A stretch of DNA of 64,000 nucleotides from the NCBI RefSeq assembly GCF_022549215.1, contig NZ_JAKZFC010000004.1, forward strand, positions 1 to 64,000, written 5' to 3'. The first letter of the stretch is position 1, and the number at the start of each line of letters is the position of its first letter. Position numbers and translations under genes: made by a program. The notes beneath the pieces are model-generated. The model saw only the letters and a list, made by a program, of their open reading frames with translations. It was not told where the DNA came from and made no database searches. The stretch is from Solibacillus palustris (GTDB taxonomy: Bacteria > Bacillota > Bacilli > Bacillales_A > Planococcaceae). Below are positions 28,369 through 44,757 of the stretch, piece after piece.

Positions 28369-29502
28369 TTGGCGCACATCAGAAAAAGAGGTAAAACTTA
28401 TTCGTATGCAATTGATATTGGTCATGACCCGTTAACTGGGAAACGTAAGCAAATAAGCAAAGGCGGATTTATTAAAAAGAAGGATGCCGAGGCAGCTGCG
28501 CGGAAGATTGAATTGCTGTTAGACGAAAATCGATTTATAGTTCTCAGCAAAGAGATCTTCTCGGAGTATATTGTCAATTGGTTTGAAAACCATTACAAAA
28601 ATCGAATTAAACAAACATCTGCAACAAATAGTCAGTACATCATAGAGAAACATATCTTAGCTGAAAATCCATTTGCAACGAAAGAAATTGCCAAGGTAAC
28701 GACTGCTGATATTGACCTTTTCTATAGCCTAAAATTAAAAGAGAATTATAGTACCAGCTATATTCGAAAGATGCATCAACTTTTAAATCAGGCATTCGGA
28801 CAAGCCGTTAAATGGAAGAAGATTGCGGTTAACCCAGTAGCTGATGCCGATCCACCTTCTGTGAAGTATGAAGAGATGTCCATCTGGTCACTCGATGCGA
28901 TTCACGAATTTCTTCAACATTGTAAAGGGGAGAGACACTATTTAACCTTTTTACTTGCGATTTATACTGGCATGCGAAGAGGAGAAATTTTAGGCTTACA
29001 GTGGCGTGACATTGATTTTGATAAAAAGATGATTCACGTAAGTAGATCGTTAGCGCATGTCTCGAAAAGTGGTTATCTATTGACGACATTGAAAACGAAA
29101 AACTCGAGACGACAAATCCCGATTCCAGAATTTGTACTACATGAATTACGCATGCATAAACAACGCCAAGAAGAGTGGAAGGGATTAGTAGGGGAGCTAT
29201 ATGAAGATAACGACTTAGTCATATGTACCAATACCGGGACCTTACAAGATCCACGAAATGTTGTGCGTGTCATGAAGCGCCTTGTTAAAAGCACGAAGGT
29301 ACCAAACATTCGTTTTCATGACATTCGGCACACGCATGCATCAATTTTAATTTCAGAAGGTGTGGATATCGTAAAAATTTCGAGGCGATTAGGTCATGCC
29401 AACCCTAAAATTACGTTAGAGTTTTATGCACATTTATTGCCGAATGCAGATAATGACATTGCAGACATTTTTCACAAAGCCATCCAAACTAACACTAAAT
29501 AA
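28369..29502 (+). CDS. Tyrosine-type site-specific integrase of the tRNA island
   Basis: 377 aa from TTG 28369, 10 nt after GGAGG. The N-terminal arm-binding domain (residues 1-45: HIRKRGKTYSYAIDIGHDP) is AP2-like, as in ICE and phage integrases. The core-binding domain is about 60-165. The catalytic domain has YTGMRRGEILGL (Arg), FHDIRHTHASIL (His-x-x-Arg), LGHANPKITLEFYAH (His, Tyr). It reads toward the 3' end of the tRNA-Val 124 bp away, the usual arrangement for integration at a tRNA 3' end. TGCGGACAAAT repeats just after the stop may be arm sites. Confidence 0.95.
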   Translation: MAHIRKRGKTYSYAIDIGHDPLTGKRKQISKGGFIKKKDAEAAARKIELLLDENRFIVLSKEIFSEYIVNWFENHYKNRIKQTSATNSQYIIEKHILAENPFATKEIAKVTTADIDLFYSLKLKENYSTSYIRKMHQLLNQAFGQAVKWKKIAVNPVADADPPSVKYEEMSIWSLDAIHEFLQHCKGERHYLTFLLAIYTGMRRGEILGLQWRDIDFDKKMIHVSRSLAHVSKSGYLLTTLKTKNSRRQIPIPEFVLHELRMHKQRQEEWKGLVGELYEDNDLVICTNTGTLQDPRNVVRVMKRLVKSTKVPNIRFHDIRHTHASILISEGVDIVKISRRLGHANPKITLEFYAHLLPNADNDIADIFHKAIQTNTK

Positions 29503-33401: not shown

Positions 33402-33535
33402 GTGATCTTCTAGGGTGATTTGATTTTCTAGTATTATTGTTAGTTAATATTTACATTTCTTATCACAACCTTAATAATTCGTTTAGTTCAATGCGTTATT
33501 ATAGGATAAATACTAAATTAATAGAGGTGAACAAG

Positions 33536-34249
33536 TTGGATGCACAGGAGCTGAAAATTAAGGACTACTTGTTAGAAGGCATTGTTACAGAGCAATTTAA
33601 GCAAGATAAAAAAATGCCAAGCGAATATATGTTGGTAGAGCAATTTAATGTACCACGTATAAAAGTACGAAACGTCTATAACTTGCTTGAAAAGATGGGT
33701 TATATATATTCGCGACAAGGAATTGGTCGTTTTATGAAGCATCAGCGTAAGCAGTTGGATGTTGTCATGACAGGGGATGTAAGTTTCACAGAAAAGATGA
33801 TGAATCAAACAGCACATTATAAGTCGATTGTGACAAAAGTCGAACAGGTGTCACCTGAGCATTCAATTTATAGCAAGCCATATGTCGATGCATCCAATAC
33901 ATTATATTTAATTGAACGTCTCCGATTTATCGAGGACGAACCGGCAGCGATTCATCGTTCCTATGTCGTTGTAGAAAACTTTTCTGAAATTAAGCAGGCC
34001 AGCAACCGCATTTCTTCGATGTATGCATTTTATAAGCAACATGGTTTTACGGATTTTCATAGCTCCTTTTCACAGCTAGAGGTAGCTTTTCCGACAGAGC
34101 TAGACCGCGTTATGCTCGGCTGCGAAATGCTAGTTCCTCTAGTACGTGTTGAGTCAGATAATTGGGCGAATGATCAGCAAATTTTACTTGAGTATACCGA
34201 AATACTTTATCGCACAGATCGTTTTTCCTTCCAACTTTTAGAGAAGTAG
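33536..34249 (+). CDS. phnF: GntR/HutC-family regulator PhnF of the phosphonate operon
   Basis: About 237 aa from TTG 33536 (GAGGTG 6 nt upstream); an in-frame extension to 33437 lacks a ribosome site. The N-terminal winged helix includes MPSEYMLVEQFNVPRIKVRN and YIYSRQGIGRFM. The C-terminal UTRA ligand domain includes YLIERLRFIEDEPAAIHRSYVV. PhnF proteins repress phn genes and respond to phosphate or phosphonate-linked ligands. It is followed by terminators and then, on the same strand, phnG. Confidence 0.88.
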   Translation: MDAQELKIKDYLLEGIVTEQFKQDKKMPSEYMLVEQFNVPRIKVRNVYNLLEKMGYIYSRQGIGRFMKHQRKQLDVVMTGDVSFTEKMMNQTAHYKSIVTKVEQVSPEHSIYSKPYVDASNTLYLIERLRFIEDEPAAIHRSYVVVENFSEIKQASNRISSMYAFYKQHGFTDFHSSFSQLEVAFPTELDRVMLGCEMLVPLVRVESDNWANDQQILLEYTEILYRTDRFSFQLLEK

Positions 34250-34476: not shown

Positions 34477-34505
34477 TACTATGGGTGTTGAAAGGAGCTG
34501 GTTAT

Positions 34506-34943
34506 GTGAAACGAGCACAACGAACAAAGCTACTCATCGAAGTAGGACGTCAAGAGGCACAGTATTTAGCACAACAAATAGTAGAACAATATGAGGTCAT
34601 TGAACTACAAGCTCCGAAACAAGGGCTTGTTATGATCAAACAACGTGAATCTGCACAAAACACATTATTTTACATTGGAGAGACACTTGTTACAGAAACT
34701 AAAGTGAAAATTGGTAACGCATATGGCATTGGTATTGTTCGAGAAAATGAACCAGAGCTGTCGACGGCCTTAGCTATTATTGACGCAGCTTACACAGGCG
34801 AATTACCGGAGACACAATTATGGGCTACTACATTTGATACATTGCAGCAACGGTTATTAGAGCAACAGCAACATATAAAACGCTCGATTGAACGTACGAA
34901 AGTTCAATTCGACACGATGATTACAGAGCAGGGGGCAAAATAA
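34506..34943 (+). CDS. phnG: PhnG, C-P lyase core subunit
   Basis: About 145 aa from GTG 34506, with AAGGAGC about 9 nt upstream. An in-frame GTG at 34485 overlaps that site. The sequence matches PhnG over its length, including KIGNAYGIGIVRENEPELS and ALAIIDAAY. PhnG is a subunit of the PhnGHIJ core, which with PhnL exchanges the adenine of ATP for the phosphonate to give ribose 1-phosphonate 5-triphosphate. Its stop overlaps the phnH start by 1 nt. Confidence 0.92.
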   Translation: MKRAQRTKLLIEVGRQEAQYLAQQIVEQYEVIELQAPKQGLVMIKQRESAQNTLFYIGETLVTETKVKIGNAYGIGIVRENEPELSTALAIIDAAYTGELPETQLWATTFDTLQQRLLEQQQHIKRSIERTKVQFDTMITEQGAK

Positions 34944-35521
34944 TGGATTTAACACACTTTACACAAGACATTTTTCGAAAGTTAGTCGATTGCTTTGCGC
35001 GTCCAGGTACGACGGCGCCAATGCCAATGCTAGCAAAGGTAAACATCAACGGATTATATGATGAAACGATGTCTGTCGTGATGGCGCTTTTAGATGGTGA
35101 AGTGAGCTTCTATATTGCTTCAACTAATGAACAGCTTCAAAAGGATGTGCGCATGCTAACAGGAGCCAAAATAACAAATTTGGCTGAGGCAGATTTTATT
35201 GTAATTCCACATGATGCAACAGCTCAGCAAGTTGAGTCCGTGTTCCATAATGCAAAATCAGGAGACTTAATTGACCCACAAAAATCAGCAACGATCTTAT
35301 ATGAAGTCGCACCAAATGCATCTAGAAATAATTTTTCGCTACAAGGGCCAGGTATTAAATCAAAATATGATATAGCAGTGGGGATTTCTCAGCAACTTAT
35401 GGAAATTCGGGCAAAGCGTAATAAAGAGTTTCCGCTTGGTATCGATTTAATCATGATCGACAAGCAACAAGAAGTCTATGCGATACCGCGAACAACAGTT
35501 ATGACGGAGGTGGCAAACTGA
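34943..35521 (+). CDS. phnH: PhnH, C-P lyase core subunit
   Basis: 192 aa, usual PhnH length. It begins with the family-typical FRKLVDCFARPGTTAPMP and carries LDGEVSFYI and GPGIKSKYDIAVG. It forms the PhnGHIJ complex. ATG overlaps the phnG stop (TAATG), and its own stop overlaps the phnI start, so stoichiometric coupled translation is expected. Confidence 0.94.
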   Translation: MDLTHFTQDIFRKLVDCFARPGTTAPMPMLAKVNINGLYDETMSVVMALLDGEVSFYIASTNEQLQKDVRMLTGAKITNLAEADFIVIPHDATAQQVESVFHNAKSGDLIDPQKSATILYEVAPNASRNNFSLQGPGIKSKYDIAVGISQQLMEIRAKRNKEFPLGIDLIMIDKQQEVYAIPRTTVMTEVAN

Positions 35522-36603
35522 TGGCATATGTAGCAGTCCGTGGCGGAAAAGAAGCAATTGAGGCGTCACTTGAACATTTATTTTATGAACGTGTGAAGCA
35601 TGGAGAAAATGTTCAGATCGAAACACTAATCGCAACAATGCGCGGCTTTTTAGATCAGATTATGTCAGAAAGTAGCATATTTAGCGAACGTTTGGCGGCT
35701 TTAGCAATGAAGCAAAGTGAGGGCAATTTTGAAGAAGCAGTATTTTTATTACGTGCACATCGCTCAACATTACCACGTATTCATTATTCAACGGTAACGG
35801 ATCCGCGCGATATGTTCGTGCTCCGTCGTATTTCAGCTAGCTTTAAAGATATTCCAGGTGGACAAATTTTAGGGGCATCGCATGATTATTTCCATCGTTT
35901 ATTAGATTTTACCTTAGAGGGTGAAACGCAGGCAGATGTGCTTTTAAAGAAAGCGGGCTTCGAGCAGGCAGAGTTACCAGAGATGAGTAATTTACCATTA
36001 GAGCGTTTGCCAAAAGTGATGGATTATTTACGGCAGGAAGGCTTGCTGCGCGAGTTTCCAGAAAGTAATGCTGAACCGAGCGATGTTACAAAAGAGGCGT
36101 TTGAATTTCCGACAAATCGTTCGCAGCGTCTGCAAACATTGACACGTGGTATTACAGGAACTGTGACATCTTTAGGCTATGCAGGCTTGCGTGGTTACGG
36201 CGCATCACACCCAAACGTAGGGGAAGTACGTGTCGGCTGGCAACCTATTCATCTAGTGATTGATGACGAGGAAGATCCTTATTATATCGGCTCATTTAAG
36301 CTTACTGAGGTAGAATCTTTTATCCCAGTTAATGTTGAAAAGAATGGGAAGCAAGAGCTAGAGTTTGATGTTGGCTACGGTGCATGCTTCGGGCAAAATG
36401 AGACGAAAGCAATTGCAATGTCAATTGTTGACCATGCATTAGAAGTAGGAGGAGATACGCCAATTCATGATGAGGAATTTGTACTACGTCATGTTGATAT
36501 TATCGAATCTACCGGCTTCATTTCACACTTGAAGATGCCGCATTATGTAACGTTCCAATCGAAGCTTGAGCAAATTCGTAGCATTAAAAAGGAGGAGCAA
36601 TGA
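35521..36603 (+). CDS. phnI: PhnI, nucleosidase-type C-P lyase core subunit
   Basis: 360 aa, full length. Conserved stretches include MAYVAVRGGKEAIEASLE at the start, LRRISASFKDIPGGQILGAS, the LGYAGLRGYGASHPNVGEVR block and FDVGYGACFGQNETKAIAM. PhnI has the nucleosidase activity of the core and supplies the site where phosphonate replaces the base. It overlaps phnH by 1 nt and phnJ by 4 nt. Confidence 0.95.
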   Translation: MAYVAVRGGKEAIEASLEHLFYERVKHGENVQIETLIATMRGFLDQIMSESSIFSERLAALAMKQSEGNFEEAVFLLRAHRSTLPRIHYSTVTDPRDMFVLRRISASFKDIPGGQILGASHDYFHRLLDFTLEGETQADVLLKKAGFEQAELPEMSNLPLERLPKVMDYLRQEGLLREFPESNAEPSDVTKEAFEFPTNRSQRLQTLTRGITGTVTSLGYAGLRGYGASHPNVGEVRVGWQPIHLVIDDEEDPYYIGSFKLTEVESFIPVNVEKNGKQELEFDVGYGACFGQNETKAIAMSIVDHALEVGGDTPIHDEEFVLRHVDIIESTGFISHLKMPHYVTFQSKLEQIRSIKKEEQ

Positions 36604-37445
36604 TGAGTGTTCCATTTGCATTATTAGATGAGCAATCAAAGCGTGAAATTCGACGTGCAGTGTTGAAGGGAATTTCGATCCCAGGCTATCAGGTGCCATT
36701 CGCTTCACGAGAGCTACCAATTGCACGCGGTTGGGGAACAGGTGGGCTACAAGTAACACTAGCATTAATCGGTAAAGAGGATGTGCTGAAAGTAATCGAC
36801 CAAGGCTCAGATGATTCCGTCAATGCGGTGAATATTAAAAAGTTGGTACAAAATACAACAGGTGTGGACACGACAATTCGTACGCAAGAGGCAACATTGA
36901 TCCAATCGCGACATCGTATTCCTGAAGTACCGTTACGTGCAGATCAAATTTTAGTACTACAAGTGCCAGAGCCAGAACCACTTCGACAAATTGAGCATAG
37001 TGAATATAAAACAAAACGCTATCATGCGGAGAAGGAATATAGCGGTGCATATTTAATGCTATTTGAGCAAATTATGCGTTACAACCAAACATCGCAAGGG
37101 GCGGATTATCCAGTAATGGTAAATGGCCGTTATGTAATGAATCCAAGTCCAATCCCGCGCTTTGACAATCCAAAAATTAATAATAGTGACGCACTTATTT
37201 TATTCGGTGCGGGCCGTGAAAAGAAAATTTATGCAGTGCCACCACATACGCATGTTGTTTCATTAGCATTTGACGATTATCCATTTGTCGTAGAGCAGTT
37301 TGTAGGAAAGGCATGTCGTGAAACGGGCTTAAAGAATGTATTCCTTGATGAGCTGACAAATGAAGTGACAGGTGAGAAGTACTATATGACAAATGATACA
37401 AGCTATATGGATGAAATTTTACAGCAAAAGGCGGCGACAAAATAA
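36600..37445 (+). CDS. phnJ: PhnJ-type C-P lyase with three of four iron-sulfur cysteines missing
   Basis: 281 aa and plainly PhnJ along its length: FALLDEQSKREIRRA, SIPGYQVPFASRELP (containing the glycine that is the glycyl-radical site Gly32 in E. coli), GWGTGGLQ, LFGAGREKKIYAVPPHTH. The C-terminal CX2CX21CX5C motif that binds the 4Fe-4S cluster and supplies the thiyl radical is altered. Here it reads KACRETGLKNVFLDE and KYYMTNDTSYM, with Thr, Thr and Met at the second to fourth Cys positions. The whole protein has one Cys. The reading frame is intact and flanked by coupled genes, so it is probably expressed. Whether it cleaves C-P bonds by the known mechanism is open. Confidence 0.93.
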   Translation: MMSVPFALLDEQSKREIRRAVLKGISIPGYQVPFASRELPIARGWGTGGLQVTLALIGKEDVLKVIDQGSDDSVNAVNIKKLVQNTTGVDTTIRTQEATLIQSRHRIPEVPLRADQILVLQVPEPEPLRQIEHSEYKTKRYHAEKEYSGAYLMLFEQIMRYNQTSQGADYPVMVNGRYVMNPSPIPRFDNPKINNSDALILFGAGREKKIYAVPPHTHVVSLAFDDYPFVVEQFVGKACRETGLKNVFLDELTNEVTGEKYYMTNDTSYMDEILQQKAATK

Positions 37446-38281
37446 TGCTAGAGCAACCAGTATTAACAGTGCGAAATTTATCAAAGCAATACGGTGAAGG
37501 CTGTGAGCATTGTGTTGACACGCAGACACAGCTTGAAAAAAACTACTGTCCAGTATGTAAAACGATATATGCGTGTCGCGATGTATCATTTGATTTATAT
37601 CGTGGTGAAATTTTAGGTATTGTCGGTGAAAGTGGTAGTGGAAAATCAACACTGATGAAAAGCTTATACTTCGATGAAACAATCACGTCTGGAGAAGGGT
37701 ATTTAGCCGATTATGAAAATGGTGAAACGAATATTTTCACAGAATCAAACCAAATGAAGCGTGCCATTCGCAATGATATTTTAGGGATGGTTTATCAAAA
37801 TCCAATGCTTGGCTTAAAGATGAATTTTTCTTCGTTAAGTAATATTGCTGAAAAGCAAATCGCGGCGGGCAATCGTCATGTGCGTCAAATGGAAAACCGT
37901 AGTTATGAGCTTTTAGAGCGTGTCAATATTCCTTTGCATCGTAGTAAAGAAGCGCCGAAAAATTTCTCTGGTGGTATGCAGCAGCGTGTACAAATTGCCA
38001 AAGCGTTATCCAATAATCCACCTGTTTTATTACTTGATGAAGTAACGACGGGGCTTGATTTGTCTGTACAGGCAGATGTGTTGGATTTAATTAAGCAAAT
38101 ACAACGCGAGCTGCAAATTTCGATGATTGTCGTATCGCATGATTTAGCTGTAATTCGTATGTTAGCAGACCGCACAATTGTTATGCTAAACGGTCAAATT
38201 ATTGAGCACGGCTTAACGGATCAAGTATTAGAAGACCCGCAACATAAATTTACGCAGCAGCTTGTGTACTCATTACTTTAA
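37445..38281 (+). CDS. phnK: PhnK, C-P lyase ABC-type ATPase with N-terminal cysteine insertion
   Basis: 278 aa. Walker A GESGSGKST, Q-loop MVYQNPM, signature FSGGMQQR, Walker B LLLDEVTTGLD (Val in place of the usual Pro), H-loop VVSHD. PhnK docks on PhnJ in the C-P lyase complex. Between the first strand and Walker A there is an insertion absent from E. coli PhnK, with Cys20, Cys23, Cys35, Cys38 and Cys44 (CEHC...CPVC...C), resembling a zinc ribbon or iron-sulfur site. It starts on the last base of the phnJ stop codon (TAATG). Confidence 0.93.
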   Translation: MLEQPVLTVRNLSKQYGEGCEHCVDTQTQLEKNYCPVCKTIYACRDVSFDLYRGEILGIVGESGSGKSTLMKSLYFDETITSGEGYLADYENGETNIFTESNQMKRAIRNDILGMVYQNPMLGLKMNFSSLSNIAEKQIAAGNRHVRQMENRSYELLERVNIPLHRSKEAPKNFSGGMQQRVQIAKALSNNPPVLLLDEVTTGLDLSVQADVLDLIKQIQRELQISMIVVSHDLAVIRMLADRTIVMLNGQIIEHGLTDQVLEDPQHKFTQQLVYSLL

Positions 38282-38293
38282 GGAGGTAGTTCC

Positions 38294-39466
38294 ATGTTAG
38301 CAATTAAAAATGGTGTCATCGTAACAGAACAACAATTTTTGCACGGACACGTAGTATTAGTGAACGGTACGACGATTGAGGGGATTTTGCCAGAGTCTTT
38401 AGTAAATCTAGCAAATTATGAGGTTGTTGATGCACAAGGTGGCTATATTTCACCAGGCTTTGTCGATATTCATTCTGATTATATTGAGACAATTGTTAGC
38501 CCACGTCCGACGTCAATGATGGATGTCAATCTTGGTTTACGTGAGAGTGAGCGTATTTTAATGACGCACGGGATTACAACGATTTTTCACTCGTTATCTT
38601 ATTATGGTGACGATAAATATTCGCATAAGCTTATTCGTAATCCAGAAAACGTACAACGCTGCGTTGATGCTATTCATGCGACACATGACGAGCCCCATTT
38701 AATACGTCACCGTCTACATGCACGCTTTGAAATTGATTCTTTAGATCAAATACCCAACCTTGAGCGAAATATTTTAGATGGTAAGGTACATCTCTTGTCG
38801 TTCATGGATCATACACCAGGGCAAGGACAATATCGCAATTTAGAATTATATAAAAATATTATGCGCGGTTACCGTGATATAACAGATGGCGAGGCAACAA
38901 CGCTAATTAAAGAGCAGACAGAAAAGGAAAAAATGTCACTGGACGAAATTGAGCGTATTAGCTGTTTAGCAATTGAGCGTAATATTGCCGTTGCTTCGCA
39001 TGATGACGACGATATAACAAAGCTTGCACTTGTACAGTCTTACGGGACAACGATTAGTGAATTTCCGATTACGTTAGATGTAGCAAAAGAGGCGAAGCGT
39101 ATTGGCATGCAAACAATTGCTGGCGCACCAAATATTTTACTTGGTGGCTCACATTCGGGGAATTTAAGTGCAGCAGAAGCAATTCAAGCACGTGCCATTG
39201 ATATTATTTGCAGTGATTACTATCCGCCTGCTATGTTACACGGTATTTTCGAGTTAGCGAATAAATACGAAGAAGATTTGCATAGCCTCTTCCAGCTTGT
39301 AACGATTAATCCAGCACGTGCGGTCAATATGGCACATGAAATTGGTTCGATTGAAGTGGGTAAAAAAGCCGATTTACTAATAATTGAGCAAATGGAAGAT
39401 GGTTACCCTGTTGTAACGACGACAATTGTAGACGGCAAAACGATTATGAAAACGAACTATCGCTAA
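38294..39466 (+). CDS. phnM: PhnM, ribose 1-methylphosphonate 5-triphosphate diphosphatase
   Basis: 390 aa amidohydrolase. Metal-binding landmarks: GFVDIHSDYIE (HxD-type variant of PhnM), FHSLSYYGDD, ASHDDDD and SDYYPPAMLHG. The enzyme removes pyrophosphate from the triphosphate intermediate before C-P cleavage. It follows phnK by 12 nt with AAGGAGGTAG ahead, same operon. Confidence 0.95.
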   Translation: MLAIKNGVIVTEQQFLHGHVVLVNGTTIEGILPESLVNLANYEVVDAQGGYISPGFVDIHSDYIETIVSPRPTSMMDVNLGLRESERILMTHGITTIFHSLSYYGDDKYSHKLIRNPENVQRCVDAIHATHDEPHLIRHRLHARFEIDSLDQIPNLERNILDGKVHLLSFMDHTPGQGQYRNLELYKNIMRGYRDITDGEATTLIKEQTEKEKMSLDEIERISCLAIERNIAVASHDDDDITKLALVQSYGTTISEFPITLDVAKEAKRIGMQTIAGAPNILLGGSHSGNLSAAEAIQARAIDIICSDYYPPAMLHGIFELANKYEEDLHSLFQLVTINPARAVNMAHEIGSIEVGKKADLLIIEQMEDGYPVVTTTIVDGKTIMKTNYR

Positions 39467-39479
39467 GGAGGCGTCATCA

Positions 39480-40178
39480 TTGATTACAATCGAAAATCTA
39501 CAAAAGTCTTTTACGATTCATCATTTAAATCAAACGTTTCCAGCATTAGAAAACTTAACTTTACACGTGCAAGAGGGTGGTTTTTTAGGCATCGTCGGTA
39601 AAAGCGGTAGCGGTAAGTCAACTATTTTAAAAAGTATTTACCGCACATACGAGCCTCAAGCGGGAAGTATTTGGTATGATTCAGCAGCGTTTGGCGAAAT
39701 CGATTTATTAACAGCTTCTTTACGTGACATTATTTATTTACGTAAACATGAAATTGGCTACGTCTCACAGTTTTTAAATGTAATGCCACGTACGACAGCC
39801 TTAGAGCTTGTAATGCAGTCACTGTATGGTGTTGGCGCAAAAGAGGAAGAGGCACTAGAGAAGGCAAAGTCAGCGCTACGTCATTTTGATATTGATGAAA
39901 AGCTTTGGAATAGCTATCCAAACAATTTTTCTGGAGGCGAAAAGCTCCGTTTGAACATTGCATGTGCAGTCGTAAAAGAGCCGCGTCTATTGCTTTTAGA
40001 TGAGCCAACAGCAAGCTTAGATCATGCATCAAAAATTAAAGTGCGTGAATCAATCGAAAAATTAAAGGCAAGAGGTACGACATTAATTGGAATTTTCCAT
40101 GACTTAGAATTTATGGAAGGACTATGTGACCAAGTATTTACGATGACAAAGCTTTCAGAAGAGAGGACCGCTATATGA
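39480..40178 (+). CDS. phnL: PhnL, C-P lyase ABC-type ATPase
   Basis: 232 aa from TTG 39480 with AAGGAGG about 8 nt upstream. Walker A GKSGSGKST, YVSQFLNVMPRT at the Q-loop, signature FSGGEKLRL, Walker B LLLDEPTASLD, H-loop IFHD. In the known complex PhnL associates with PhnK as a dual ATPase. Overlaps the next gene by 4 nt. Confidence 0.94.
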   Translation: MITIENLQKSFTIHHLNQTFPALENLTLHVQEGGFLGIVGKSGSGKSTILKSIYRTYEPQAGSIWYDSAAFGEIDLLTASLRDIIYLRKHEIGYVSQFLNVMPRTTALELVMQSLYGVGAKEEEALEKAKSALRHFDIDEKLWNSYPNNFSGGEKLRLNIACAVVKEPRLLLLDEPTASLDHASKIKVRESIEKLKARGTTLIGIFHDLEFMEGLCDQVFTMTKLSEERTAI

Positions 40179-40996
40179 CGACAGATTTGCATACGCACAG
40201 CCGCTATTCGGACGGTTCTTCAACACTTGAAGAGCTATTTATAGAAGCTAAAAAAGCAGGCATTACACAGCTTGGTGTCGTTGACCATGATACGATAAAG
40301 CACCATGCAGAGGGCCGCAGATTGGCTGTGCAATATGGTATCGATTTTGTTGCAGGTATAGAGATTTCTGCGTTCGATTATAAGCGAAATCGAAAGGTGC
40401 ACCTACTTGGCTACGGGTTTACAGGAGACTGTGCAAATATGGAAGAGCTTTGTCGGCCATTACTTGCGCGCCGTCATGCCCATTCAATTTGGCAGCTTGA
40501 ACGTATCAAGGAAGTCGGTTTCCAGCTTGATCTAGAGCGAGCGCTACACTATGCCGAGACGTGTGGAACACTATATAAGCAGCACATTATGCATGCATTA
40601 ACTGATGCACCGTATAATTCAAAAAGTTATCAAACGATATACCGTTCTTTATTTAAAAATAATGGTGTAGCATCAGGTGATATACGATACGTTGATGCCT
40701 TTGATGCGATGCACGCTATTCATGCGGACGGCGGAATTGCAGTGCTAGCACATCCAGGACAGCTACAATCATTTGAAATTGCTGAAGAGCTTATTGCTAA
40801 TGGCTTAGATGGTATCGAAGTCATTCATCCAGATCACTCAATGGAGGATATCGACTTGGCTAACAAGCTTGCTGAGAAATATCGCTTAATTAAAACAGGT
40901 GGCTCCGATTATCATGCTCAATACGGTAATTCTGTAAAGCTAGGTCAATATACTTGTCAGCCTTTACAAACTGCTGAATTGTTAAGCAAACGTTAA
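40175..40996 (+). CDS. PHP-domain phosphoesterase of the C-P lyase operon (PhnPP-like)
   Basis: 273 aa PHP-family metal phosphoesterase: DLHTHSRYSDGSS, VVDHDT, AGIEISAF, VLAHPG and TGGSDYHAQYG. In the known pathway the cyclic ribose phosphate made by PhnJ is opened by PhnP. A PHP enzyme from Eggerthella (PhnPP) is reported to hydrolyse both ester bonds in turn. With no phnP or phnN in this operon, the same job is the natural reading here. It is the last gene of the coupled catalytic block. Confidence 0.85.
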   Translation: MTTDLHTHSRYSDGSSTLEELFIEAKKAGITQLGVVDHDTIKHHAEGRRLAVQYGIDFVAGIEISAFDYKRNRKVHLLGYGFTGDCANMEELCRPLLARRHAHSIWQLERIKEVGFQLDLERALHYAETCGTLYKQHIMHALTDAPYNSKSYQTIYRSLFKNNGVASGDIRYVDAFDAMHAIHADGGIAVLAHPGQLQSFEIAEELIANGLDGIEVIHPDHSMEDIDLANKLAEKYRLIKTGGSDYHAQYGNSVKLGQYTCQPLQTAELLSKR

Positions 40997-41102: not shown

Positions 41103-42134
41103 ATGAACAAAAAGTGGTTAACGGCTTTAATGGCAATGCTATGTGTACTTTTTTTATCAGCATGTAATTCTTCGAGCAACGATGCAGCATCGACAGATGC
41201 ATCAACTGGTCCAGTAACACTTGTATGGTATCCAAATGAATCTGGCTCAGAACTGTCGGCTTCTCGTGATGCATTTTCAGCATTAATTAAAGAGGCTACT
41301 GGTCGTGATGTAGAGCATAAATTAACGACAGACTATGCGATTGCGATCGAATCAATCGCCAATGGTAATGCACATATCGCGTTTATGGGTCCACAAGGTT
41401 ATATCGAAGCAAATAACAAAAGCAAAGATGTACAAGCATTAGTCGTACCATCTGGTGAATCAGGCACGTTAGACGATGCTGTTTATTATAGCTGGTTAGC
41501 TGTACCGAAAGAAAAAGCTGAAGATTATAAAGTAGATGGCGAATTTTCAATGGATGCAATTGAAGGGAAATCAATCTCATTCGTATCAACATCTTCTACT
41601 TCAGGATTTAAAGTACCAACAAGTTCTATTATTTCTCACTTTAGCGATAAAAACTTAACAGAAGAAAAACTGATGGAAGGTAACGATGTGTTCCCGACAG
41701 TATTATTCGGTGACTCTCACCAAGGCTCAGCGGTAAATATGTTAATGGAACGTTCAGATGTATCGGCATTTTGTGACACTTGTGTAAGCTCATATGTTGA
41801 GCTAGTTGAAGGTGAAGCAAATAAACCAGGCGCAGTTTATCGTGTAAAGGACGATGCAGCCGCACCATTTAATACTTTAACAGGTGAAGAATTCACATTG
41901 ATTCAAGTAACGGCAGTATTAAATTCCCCATTCGTAGTAAACAAATCTGTGTTAACAGAAGAGGAAATTACGAAGCTTAAAGAAGCTTTCATTTCAGATG
42001 AAACAGCAAATAACACAGAGATTTTCGTACCAGAAGATTCAGGTGAAGCCGGTTTATTCTCTAAATCAGCGGATGAGCGTTTTTTAGAAGTAGAGGATGC
42101 TTGGTTTAACCCAATTCGCGAGCTATCTAAATAA
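41103..42134 (+). CDS. phnD: PhnD, phosphonate-binding lipoprotein of the ABC importer
   Basis: 343 aa. Lipoprotein signal MNKKWLTALMAMLCVLFLSAC with the lipidated Cys21, then a Ser/Ala/Asp-rich linker. The mature domain has the PhnD family pattern (LVWYPNESGSEL, IANGNAHIAFMGPQGYIEA, GDSHQGSAVNML). It captures phosphonate outside the membrane. GGGAG lies about 7 nt before ATG. A 106-nt gap with a small hairpin (GGCACT/AGTGCC, near 41052) separates it from the catalytic genes. Confidence 0.94.
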   Translation: MNKKWLTALMAMLCVLFLSACNSSSNDAASTDASTGPVTLVWYPNESGSELSASRDAFSALIKEATGRDVEHKLTTDYAIAIESIANGNAHIAFMGPQGYIEANNKSKDVQALVVPSGESGTLDDAVYYSWLAVPKEKAEDYKVDGEFSMDAIEGKSISFVSTSSTSGFKVPTSSIISHFSDKNLTEEKLMEGNDVFPTVLFGDSHQGSAVNMLMERSDVSAFCDTCVSSYVELVEGEANKPGAVYRVKDDAAAPFNTLTGEEFTLIQVTAVLNSPFVVNKSVLTEEEITKLKEAFISDETANNTEIFVPEDSGEAGLFSKSADERFLEVEDAWFNPIRELSK

Positions 42135-42244: not shown

Positions 42245-43099
42245 ATGGTTACTTCTGCGGTGAAAGAAAAACAACGAATTCAACAAAAGCAAACGTTTAG
42301 TTATCCACAAGTGGAAGGCTATGAGGATTTACCAACCACAGTTTTAAAGTTAACTAATCTTGTGAAAAGCTATGATCGCCAAACGACTGTGCTTGACGGT
42401 ATTAATCTAGAGCTTCAAGAAGGAGAGTTTGTATCGATTATCGGAAAATCTGGTGCTGGTAAATCGACACTACTACGCTGTATAAATCGTATGATTGAGC
42501 CGTCAAGCGGTACCATTTTATTCAATAATACATCGCTTACTAAGCTTAATAAACGTGAACTACGTAAAGAGCGTACAAAAATCGGAATGATATTCCAACA
42601 TTATAATTTAGTTTCACGATTAACCGTTTTTGAAAATGTATTACATGGTCGCTTCGGTTATAAATCATCATTAAAAGGCATTTTAGGTATATACAGTGAA
42701 GAGGAAAAACTACTTGCCCTACAAATTTTAGATAAGTTAGGAATGAAAGAGCATATTTATAAGCGATGTGACCAGCTAAGTGGTGGACAAAAGCAACGCG
42801 TCGGCATTGCCCGTGCACTTGTACAGGAGCCAACACTGTTACTATGTGACGAACCAATCGCTTCACTCGATCCGAACGCGTCAAAGGTAATCATGGATCA
42901 TTTAAAAGAAATTTCACAATCGATGGGTATTACAGTGTTAGTCAACTTGCACCAAGTCGATGTGGCAATGCGTTATTCAGACCGGATTATCGGGTTAAGT
43001 AAAGGTGAAAAAGTGTTCGACGGTAAACCAAAGAATTTAACGCAGCATAACATTAAAGATATTTACGGCTCAGAAGTGGATGAATTAATTTTTGAATAA
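42245..43099 (+). CDS. phnC: PhnC, phosphonate importer ATPase
   Basis: 284 aa. Walker [21 protein letters not shown] at the Q-loop, signature LSGGQKQRV, Walker [15 protein letters not shown]-loop VNLHQVD, all as in PhnC. About 25 extra residues at the N-terminus precede the ATPase fold. AAAGGAGAG lies before ATG. It pairs with the two PhnE permeases. Confidence 0.95.
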
Positions 43100-43123: not shown

Positions 43124-43912
43124 ATGACGGATATAAATATTTTACGAGTGAAAAAATGGCGTATGACAGGTATTTTCGTAGTGATTATTGGGCTATTATA
43201 TGGCTCGTCGGTGCTGACAAAATTTAATCTTGTAGAAGGCATCGCATCGATTCCGGGGACATTTGCTTGGATGGTTGCAAATCTCATTCCTTCAGCCGAA
43301 TCATTAGAAAATTTACCGCGTGTACTTGAAAGTTTATGGGAGACGATCATTTTATCGGTGCTCGTAACGACAACGGCTGCGATATTTGCCTTGCTATTTG
43401 CTTTAATGGGTGCTAAAACGACACAAGTGAACCATACATTTGGCTTTATTGTACGTTTTATTGCATCGGTATTTCGAAATATCCCAGTCGTAGCATGGGC
43501 TTTAGTGCTTGTTATATCATTTGGTCATAATGTGATTACAGGCTATTTTGCGTTATTTTTCTCAACGTTCGGTATTTTAGTGCGTATGTTTATTGAGACG
43601 ATTGATGAGACGAGTTCGGATGGGGTAGAGGCGCTAACATCAACGGGTGCGAGCTACTTCCAAATGGTGTTTCGAGGCGTTATTCCAGATACGCTACCCC
43701 AAATGCTAAGCTGGGTATTTTATATGATTGAGACAAATATTCGTAGCGCTACTTTAGTCGGTATTTTAACAGGTACTGGTATCGGCTTTTTATTTGATAT
43801 GTACTATAAGCGAATGGACTACGGCATGCTTGGGCTTATTACAATTGCCATCATTATTATCGTAATGGCGATCGAATTTTCATCGAATTACGTAAGGAGA
43901 GCGATTTCATAA
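43124..43912 (+). CDS. phnE: PhnE, phosphonate importer permease 1
   Basis: 262 aa with five to six membrane segments and the permease EAA-like loop (DGVEALTSTGASYFQMVFRG). It follows phnC by 24 nt, with GGAGG in front, and its stop overlaps the start of the second permease. Confidence 0.93.
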   Translation: MTDINILRVKKWRMTGIFVVIIGLLYGSSVLTKFNLVEGIASIPGTFAWMVANLIPSAESLENLPRVLESLWETIILSVLVTTTAAIFALLFALMGAKTTQVNHTFGFIVRFIASVFRNIPVVAWALVLVISFGHNVITGYFALFFSTFGILVRMFIETIDETSSDGVEALTSTGASYFQMVFRGVIPDTLPQMLSWVFYMIETNIRSATLVGILTGTGIGFLFDMYYKRMDYGMLGLITIAIIIIVMAIEFSSNYVRRAIS

Positions 43913-44757
43913 TGCAAGTAATTTCAATCATGCAAGGCGTAAAACAAAAAAATAACCGCATTCAAATAAAATTAATGACAAAATCAAGCCTGGTCATGCG
44001 TATTGTACTTTGGTCATTTGCGGTCTTCACAATAATGGGACCTTTTTTATTAAATTATGGCACAGTCGATTGGGGAACAGCGGCATCATTAACACTAAAT
44101 AATTTAAAAATGATGTTCCTGCAGCCCGCGTTTAACCAAATAACATTTACAGGTACGCTCATTCAAATCTCTATTACATTAGCACTTGCGCTATTAGCGA
44201 CTGTTTTAGGGGCAATCATTGCATTTTTCTTAGCCATTTTTAGTGCGAAAAACTTAGCCCCCGCATGGCTATCTAATGTAATTATCGCGGGCAATTCATT
44301 TGTTCGTGCAGTGCCGACAGTTCTTTGGGTATTAATCTTTGCAATTGTTGCAGGATTAGGTGCCGTTGCTTGTGTTATCGGGATGATTTTTCATACAGTT
44401 GCCTATTTAACAAAAGCTTTTGCAGAATCATTTGAGGAATTAGATGAAGGAACAATCGAAGCGTTACGTGCATCGGGTGCCAATTGGTGGCATATTATTT
44501 TTGGCGCAGTAGTACCACAATCTTCTTCGTACATTGTATCATGGACGTTTTTACGCTTTGAATCAAATTATGGCGTAGCAGTAGCAATGGGAGCAGCAGC
44601 TGCTGCAGGTGGTATTGGTTTCGATCTATTTATGTCTTCAAGCTTCTACTATGACTTGCATGAGGTTGGAATGATTACTTACTGTGCATTAATTGTAGCG
44701 ATTATTTTGGAGCTCATTTCTATACGTATTAAAAAGAAGCTCATGGCACAAAATTGA
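43912..44757 (+). CDS. phnE: PhnE, phosphonate importer permease 2
   Basis: 281 aa, paralogous to the preceding permease: EAA-like loop GTIEALRASGANWWHIIFGA and six membrane segments, with an alanine/glycine-rich segment (AVAMGAAAAAGGIG). The two form a heterodimeric channel. Last gene of the phn operon, followed by the terminator at 44902. Confidence 0.93.
   Translation: MQVISIMQGVKQKNNRIQIKLMTKSSLVMRIVLWSFAVFTIMGPFLLNYGTVDWGTAASLTLNNLKMMFLQPAFNQITFTGTLIQISITLALALLATVLGAIIAFFLAIFSAKNLAPAWLSNVIIAGNSFVRAVPTVLWVLIFAIVAGLGAVACVIGMIFHTVAYLTKAFAESFEELDEGTIEALRASGANWWHIIFGAVVPQSSSYIVSWTFLRFESNYGVAVAMGAAAAAGGIGFDLFMSSSFYYDLHEVGMITYCALIVAIILELISIRIKKKLMAQN

Follow-up and report, generated by a model that had tools for sequence, protein, structure and literature searches.

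The window, that is, the whole 64,000-nucleotide stretch of Solibacillus palustris DNA analysed here, carries on its forward strand a phn operon in which phnJ (36600–37445; assigned by PF06007, alignment to E. coli PhnJ 7z15_D and motif scoring) reads Cys-Thr-Thr-Met at the four metal-site positions. The gene set begins with phnF (33437–34249), a putative regulator labelled by position and by eye, a homologue of which lies at the same place in 34/38 variant loci (those whose PhnJ lacks both Cys244 and Cys272, E. coli numbering) and was not found in the other four, one of which lies at the end of a contig. It continues with phnG (34485–34943) and phnH (34943–35521), which exceed the cut-offs of TIGR03293 and TIGR03292, respectively, and with phnI (35521–36603; PF05861, 432 bits), whose product has His230, His336 and His341 at the positions of the E. 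coli zinc-site residues His219, His328 and His333 in the residue map. Downstream of phnJ, phnK (37445–38281) encodes a protein with an N-terminal CxxC...CxxC insertion that E. coli PhnK does not have, and is followed by phnM (38294–39466; above the TIGR02318 cut-off) and phnL (39480–40178). PhnK and PhnL are named by homology and position, as each stays below the cut-off of its best family (212 bits against 303 for TIGR02323, and 255.6 bits, just short of 256.3, for TIGR02324). The PHP-domain protein encoded at 40175–40996 (PF02811) is a homologue only of phosphoribosyl 1,2-cyclic phosphate diphosphodiesterase, since it matches its best family, NF041661, over nearly the full length (E 3e-89, 299 bits) and does not reach the cut-off of 500; that enzyme acts on the product of C-P lyase. 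The operon closes with phnD for a phosphonate-binding protein with retained head-group residues in its pocket (41103–42134; PF12974, TIGR03431 under its cut-off) and with three ORFs labelled by synteny, the transporter ATPase gene phnC (42245–43099) and the permease genes phnE1 (43124–43912) and phnE2 (43912–44757). The order G-H-I-J-K-M-L-PHP-D-C-E-E is complete in 38/38 variant loci, which bears out the intact operon described in an earlier note on this DNA, and the PHP homologue is present in 39/39 variants. Upstream, an ORF for a tyrosine-recombinase-type integrase (28369–29502) lies about 4 kb before phnF, and the segment 32205–33222 holds an ArsR-type regulator ORF followed by an apparent fusion of an AHSA1/START-type domain with a C-terminal PDZ-like domain, all read by eye.

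The phnJ ORF shares 4 bases with phnI and 1 base with phnK and encodes 281 amino acids in frame and at full length, as the earlier note had read it; the product matches PF06007 with 441 bits (cut-off 25) over profile positions 4–273 of 275. Its residues 5–272 align with residues 8–274 of E. coli PhnJ 7z15_D (E 3e-96). With E. coli PhnJ (PDB 7z15, 4xb6) it shares near-full-length homology as well as Gly32, Arg107, His108 and Gln124, whereas Cys244, Cys266 and Cys272 of the E. coli protein are Thr, Thr and Met in the window protein and the neighbouring PhnK bears the additional Cys4 insertion. The CX2CX21CX5C motif (Cys241/244/266/272) of a radical-SAM, Fe4S4-binding PhnJ is absent, and the single cysteine and the reading Cys/Thr/Thr/Met given in the earlier note are exact. 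The sole cysteine, Cys239 (37314–37316), corresponds to E. coli Cys241 and is Cys in 39/39 variant rows of our alignment. Thr242 (37323–37325) stands at Cys244, where the variant rows have Thr (20) or Ser (19); Thr264 (37389–37391) stands at Cys266, with Thr in 20, Cys in 18 and Ala in one; and Met270 (37407–37409) stands at Cys272, with Met in 38 and Leu in one. The glycine that had been noted as retained is indeed Gly29 (36684–36686), equivalent to E. coli Gly32, where the glycyl radical is reported, and is Gly in 39/39 variant and 47/47 canonical rows. The window protein, encoded inside a phnGHIJKLM operon, is a PhnJ by descent, but not a PhnJ by the motif that defines the accepted chemistry. 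A PF06007 search of the 4.0 Mb genome (99.98% complete) found no second PhnJ. The same-species genome G001 also reads CTTM, the variant state occurs in 41 genomes, and a change from Cys (TGY) to Met (ATG) requires three base changes, so chance or a read error does not account for the variant. AlphaFold, given 18 sequences, modelled the window PhnJ poorly, with a mean pLDDT of 52 overall and of 63–76 in the blocks of the ribbon.

Scoring the four cysteine columns in PhnJ of the Bacillota, as the earlier note had suggested, revealed a fixed, clade-wide loss. The variant state was found in 41 genomes of three families, comprising 23 loci scored by alignment column and 18 of 18 further loci. Among 72 PhnJ loci in the column scoring, 47 have all four cysteines (CCCC) and 23 are variants, two broken genes being left unscored. 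PhnJ occurs in 54/261 genomes of the window's own family (21 variant, 32 CCCC, one broken), in 3/108 genomes of family f9 and in 17/33 genomes of family f42. The latter two families have 20 PhnJ proteins, all variant, in which position 244 holds Ser, 266 Thr (once Ala) and 272 Met; two of these proteins were scored by alignment column and 18 were read from their C-terminal tails. PhnJ matched once in every variant genome. The 86 aligned rows split cleanly into 47 CCCC rows, E. coli included, and 39 without both Cys244 and Cys272, with zero intermediates; the rows were grouped by motif, and the four cysteines are therefore invariant in the canonical group by definition. In zero loci is just one of Cys244 and Cys272 lost. 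Within the 39 variant rows Cys244 is replaced by Thr or Ser and Cys272 by Met, once by Leu, while Cys266 is lost in 21/39 and Cys241 in 0/39. Canonical Bacillota PhnJ proteins, those of the same family included, have all four cysteines, in contrast to the variants, and are about 57–72% identical to the window protein, mostly with the same operon order and with the same PhnK insertion. One set of 17 loci comprised 10 named variants, namely Solibacillus faecavium, Caryophanon tenue, Bacillus ndiopicus, Lysinibacillus mangiferihumi, L. yapensis, L. halotolerans, Metasolibacillus meyeri, a Metasolibacillus MAG, Ureibacillus galli and U. massiliensis, and seven CCCC loci; several of these variants overlap with the 41 genomes and were counted once. 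A sample across the phylum gave CCCC in 20/20 scored loci, with the fragment L168 left unscored, and sampling outside the phylum was very sparse. A plasmid search returned 215 records, 214 of them below 60% identity; these records lie outside the motif scoring. Three further observations concern individual loci. The phnJ genes of L054 (G153) and L057 (G309) are broken by an in-frame TAG. A contig titled Treponema denticola MAG (L123) carries a CCCC phnJ 72% identical to that of the window together with the PhnK Cys4 insertion, and reflects either misbinning or transfer. Finally, L093 (G250) is a distant CCCC operon of different gene order, perhaps acquired separately, in genus g18, where the eight other members with PhnJ are all variants.

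The variants group into a single clade. A phylogeny built on concatenated PhnG, I, K, L and M with PhnJ residues 1–230, from which the domain bearing the trait itself (PhnJ 231–281) was excluded, placed the 39 full-locus variants on one side of one branch with support 100; it was a quick search under LG+G4 with 85 rows, at least three of the canonical rows being duplicates and long branches occurring among them. Inside the clade, a Thr subclade (20 rows) and a Ser subclade (19 rows) each have support 100. A second tree under a mixture model, with 35 chosen rows and without PhnG, recovered the same variant grouping with support 99. Because the variants are one clade in both trees, Cys244 and Cys272 would most simply have been lost once and never regained; repeated independent loss was considered and is unnecessary, although the long-branch warning among the canonical rows stands. 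The column of Cys266 holds Thr or Ala across the Ser subclade, Thr in the window species and Cys in the 18 others, and from this distribution Cys266 was probably lost at least twice. That the lone Cys241 was never lost beside so variable a neighbour suggests that it retains some role. In 13 variant pairs, omega (NG86, calculated with our own script) was 0–0.05 for PhnJ 1–230. For PhnJ 231–281 it was 0.31 in the window and its same-species partner, a value resting on 4 against 3 changes, and 0–0.14 in ten other computable pairs, two pairs giving no value. Omega in canonical pairs was similar or higher. Variant PhnJ is under strong selection, and the view of the earlier note that this is not simple decay is upheld by these values and by the single clade.

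Conservation extends to the other active-site residues that were scored. PhnJ has 74 positions that never vary across the 47 canonical rows, and 67 of them are also invariant in the 39 variants; the remaining seven are the three cysteines, which are the only widespread losses, and four positions each changed in two rows. Gly32, Gly47-Trp48-Gly49-Thr50, Arg107, His108 and Gln124 of PhnJ and the zinc-site residues His219, His328 and His333 of PhnI are invariant in 39/39 variants, so that every variant has both the PhnI zinc-site histidines and the PhnJ contacts to PRcP (Arg107, His108 and Gln124) that mark a C-P lyase. These contacts to PRcP and zinc are taken from the E. coli structural study (PMC9947105). 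Variants likewise retain 56/57 canonical invariants in PhnK, 50/60 in PhnI and 36/48 in the PHP protein. In PhnD, the head-group residues of the pocket (Tyr47, Tyr93, Ser127, Thr128, Ser129 and His157 in mature numbering) are as in E. coli in 39/39 variants, and E. coli Glu177 and Asp205 are replaced in variant and canonical groups alike. Positions of PhnJ that differ between the groups cluster at the old metal site (window 241, 242, 244, 263 and 270), with further differences at 4, 163 and 166. Leu has become Glu and other residues at 241, Ala/Ser has become Leu at 244 (37/39), Gln has become Leu, Val or Met at 263 (37/39), and Cys has become Met or Leu at 270. Since genome G071 has Leu at window 270, sulfur is dispensable at that position. 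The pattern resembles repacking of the ribbon in the absence of metal. Some zinc ribbons have lost their metal and retained their fold, with polar and hydrophobic residues in place of cysteines and the domain still under selection; the likeness of the variant PhnJ to such ribbons, drawn at the level of sequence, is a general analogy.

According to the prevailing scheme, the cluster of PhnJ is bound by Cys241, Cys244 and Cys266 and acts through Gly32 and a thiyl radical on Cys272 (PMC7916636). Judged by their residues, the variants cannot use this scheme as written. The structural study of the E. coli enzyme places the Fe4S4 site about 30 Å from Gly32, unchanged on opening of the complex, models the product PRcP at the PhnI/PhnJ zinc site, and calls the mechanism of C-P lyase an unresolved conundrum (PMC9947105). 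We give an even chance to the reading that the variant operon encodes a functional C-P lyase in which the PhnJ ribbon would be metal-free and neither a PhnJ-bound Fe4S4 cluster nor Cys272 would be needed; both the continued cleavage of the C-P bond and the absence of metal from the ribbon are inferences. We propose the following hypothetical sequence of steps, in which (i) PhnCDE would import the phosphonate; (ii) PhnGHIL would couple it to the ribose of a nucleotide; (iii) PhnM would trim the adduct to 5-phosphoribosyl 1-phosphonate; (iv) this would be converted into the 1,2-cyclic phosphate at the PhnI/PhnJ interface; and (v) the PHP enzyme would open the 1,2-cyclic phosphate. Step (iv) would rely on the invariant zinc-site histidines of PhnI, on Arg107, His108, Gln124 and Gly32 of PhnJ and on the lone Cys241, which as a source of thiol or thiyl is our preferred guess, and would proceed independently of a PhnJ-bound Fe4S4 cluster and of Cys272. 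Against this metal-free reading count the prevailing mechanism, which requires both Cys272 and the cluster (PMC7916636), the low confidence of the AlphaFold model, and the scores of the PHP protein and PhnK, which fall below the cut-offs of their best families. The broader claim is one that we advance tentatively, as possible and somewhat doubtful: C-P bonds would be cut in one lineage of C-P lyases with neither an iron-sulfur cluster nor a Cys272 thiyl, the radical-SAM mechanism of the textbooks would be incorrect or lack generality, and the true centre would be the PhnI/PhnJ zinc site, perhaps with Cys241.

A known parallel is the phosphomethylpyrimidine synthase ThiC, a non-canonical radical-SAM enzyme that a review likens to PhnJ through its four C-terminal cysteines (PMC7916636). 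However, ThiC is described there as sharing less than 10% identity with PhnJ and keeps its cluster. A search of open-licence papers, covering titles, the openings of abstracts and selected passages, turned up no report of a cysteine-less PhnJ and nothing on growth, methane or enzyme activity in any variant strain.

The main rival, which we hold to be unlikely, is that the variant complex would use the PhnI/PhnJ zinc site for a non-radical reaction and would no longer cut unactivated C-P bonds. The ribose 2'-OH might, for example, attack the phosphorus as in an RNase, releasing a stabilised carbanion or an alcohol, with only activated phosphonates or phosphate and phosphite esters as substrates. 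Such a change would fit the loss of Cys244 and Cys272 in all variants alongside the persistence of the zinc-site residues, the PRcP contacts and the PHP homologue. Canonical-invariant positions are also changed in greater number in PhnI (10/60) and in the PHP protein (12/48) than in PhnJ outside its cysteines (four), and His80 of PhnI, which occurs in 29% of canonical rows, is fixed in variants; these changes leave some functional shift possible. However, Gly32 is invariant and its surroundings are nearly so (window Pro33 is changed in 2/39), although a non-radical reaction would make a radical glycine needless; the residue may be structural. The PhnD head-group residues are kept as well, and positions 177 and 205 differ from E. 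coli alike in both groups, so nothing points to the import of another ligand. A review table lists Lysinibacillus sphaericus as degrading glyphosate by C-P lyase, which also speaks against a non-radical reaction, with no PhnJ sequence attached (PMC8625783); the passages of the Lysinibacillus glyphosate papers contain no PhnJ sequence and no proof of C-P lyase either. For Salinicoccus, the product listed in a review table is AMPA, which C-P lyase does not form.

Another possibility, in our estimate clearly improbable, is that radical chemistry has been kept and is supplied otherwise, either by a shared cluster on Cys241, on Cys266 where present and on ligands from another subunit such as the CxxC...CxxC of PhnK, or by trans-activation of Gly32 by a radical-SAM protein. 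The four cysteines of PhnK are invariant in 39/39 variants, but equally so in the 45/45 canonical rows other than E. coli, and hence do not track the loss. The Cys4 insertion (window 37500–37580) is N-terminal, before the Walker A region and apparently near the A loop, and is possibly a zinc ribbon; it is fixed in 84/84 rows other than E. coli and absent from PhnK of E. coli and from one alphaproteobacterial and one actinomycete PhnK (L126, L129). As a compensating correlate it was rejected, being equally fixed in canonical rows. Across 12 aligned operon proteins (phnF left out), no new cysteine is fixed in both variant subclades and missing from the canonical rows, and relocation of the radical chemistry to new operon cysteines, a form of the relocation that the earlier note had named as one option, is therefore disfavoured as far as these alignments tell. 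PhnL Cys162 is commoner in the variant subclades (60% and 58%) than in canonical rows (9%), whereas PhnM Cys306 and PhnL Cys216 are fixed in variants and also common in canonical rows (67% and 62%). With Leu at 272 in G071 and 21/39 variants lacking Cys266, there is no common ligand set in PhnJ itself. A PFL-activase (TIGR02493) exceeds the cut-off in 3/26 variant genomes tested (of 41) and in 2/16 canonical genomes, the window genome not being among them, and activation of Gly32 by an enzyme of that type is consequently not conserved. With 11 radical-SAM matches above the cut-off, the window genome may nevertheless encode some other radical-SAM partner. Finally, a decayed, non-functional PhnJ or a sequencing error is hardly tenable: residues thought essential are lost and phnJ has a broken frame in two other genomes, but 41 genomes in one clade, the low omega over residues 1–230 and the full operons in all 38 loci stand against it.

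C-P lyase is a broad-range bacterial route by which phosphorus is freed from phosphonates, and it converts methylphosphonate into methane (PMC10574752). The variants also matter for metagenomics: in a 2025 study the presence of the four conserved cysteines forms part of the argument for methane production (PMC11978286), whereas a PF06007 match alone would class the variants as methane producers. In summary, in one Gram-positive lineage the subunit to which cleavage of the very stable C-P bond is ascribed lacks the cysteines presumed to power it, in a gene set that is intact and conserved, so that the accepted mechanism does not hold generally or else these bacteria use the complex for something new. 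A natural clade free of the cluster cysteines is a ready-made experiment and makes the question of mechanism directly testable: if the variant works, the Fe4S4/Cys272 chemistry is not essential, and if it does not cut C-P bonds, the complex has a new activity.
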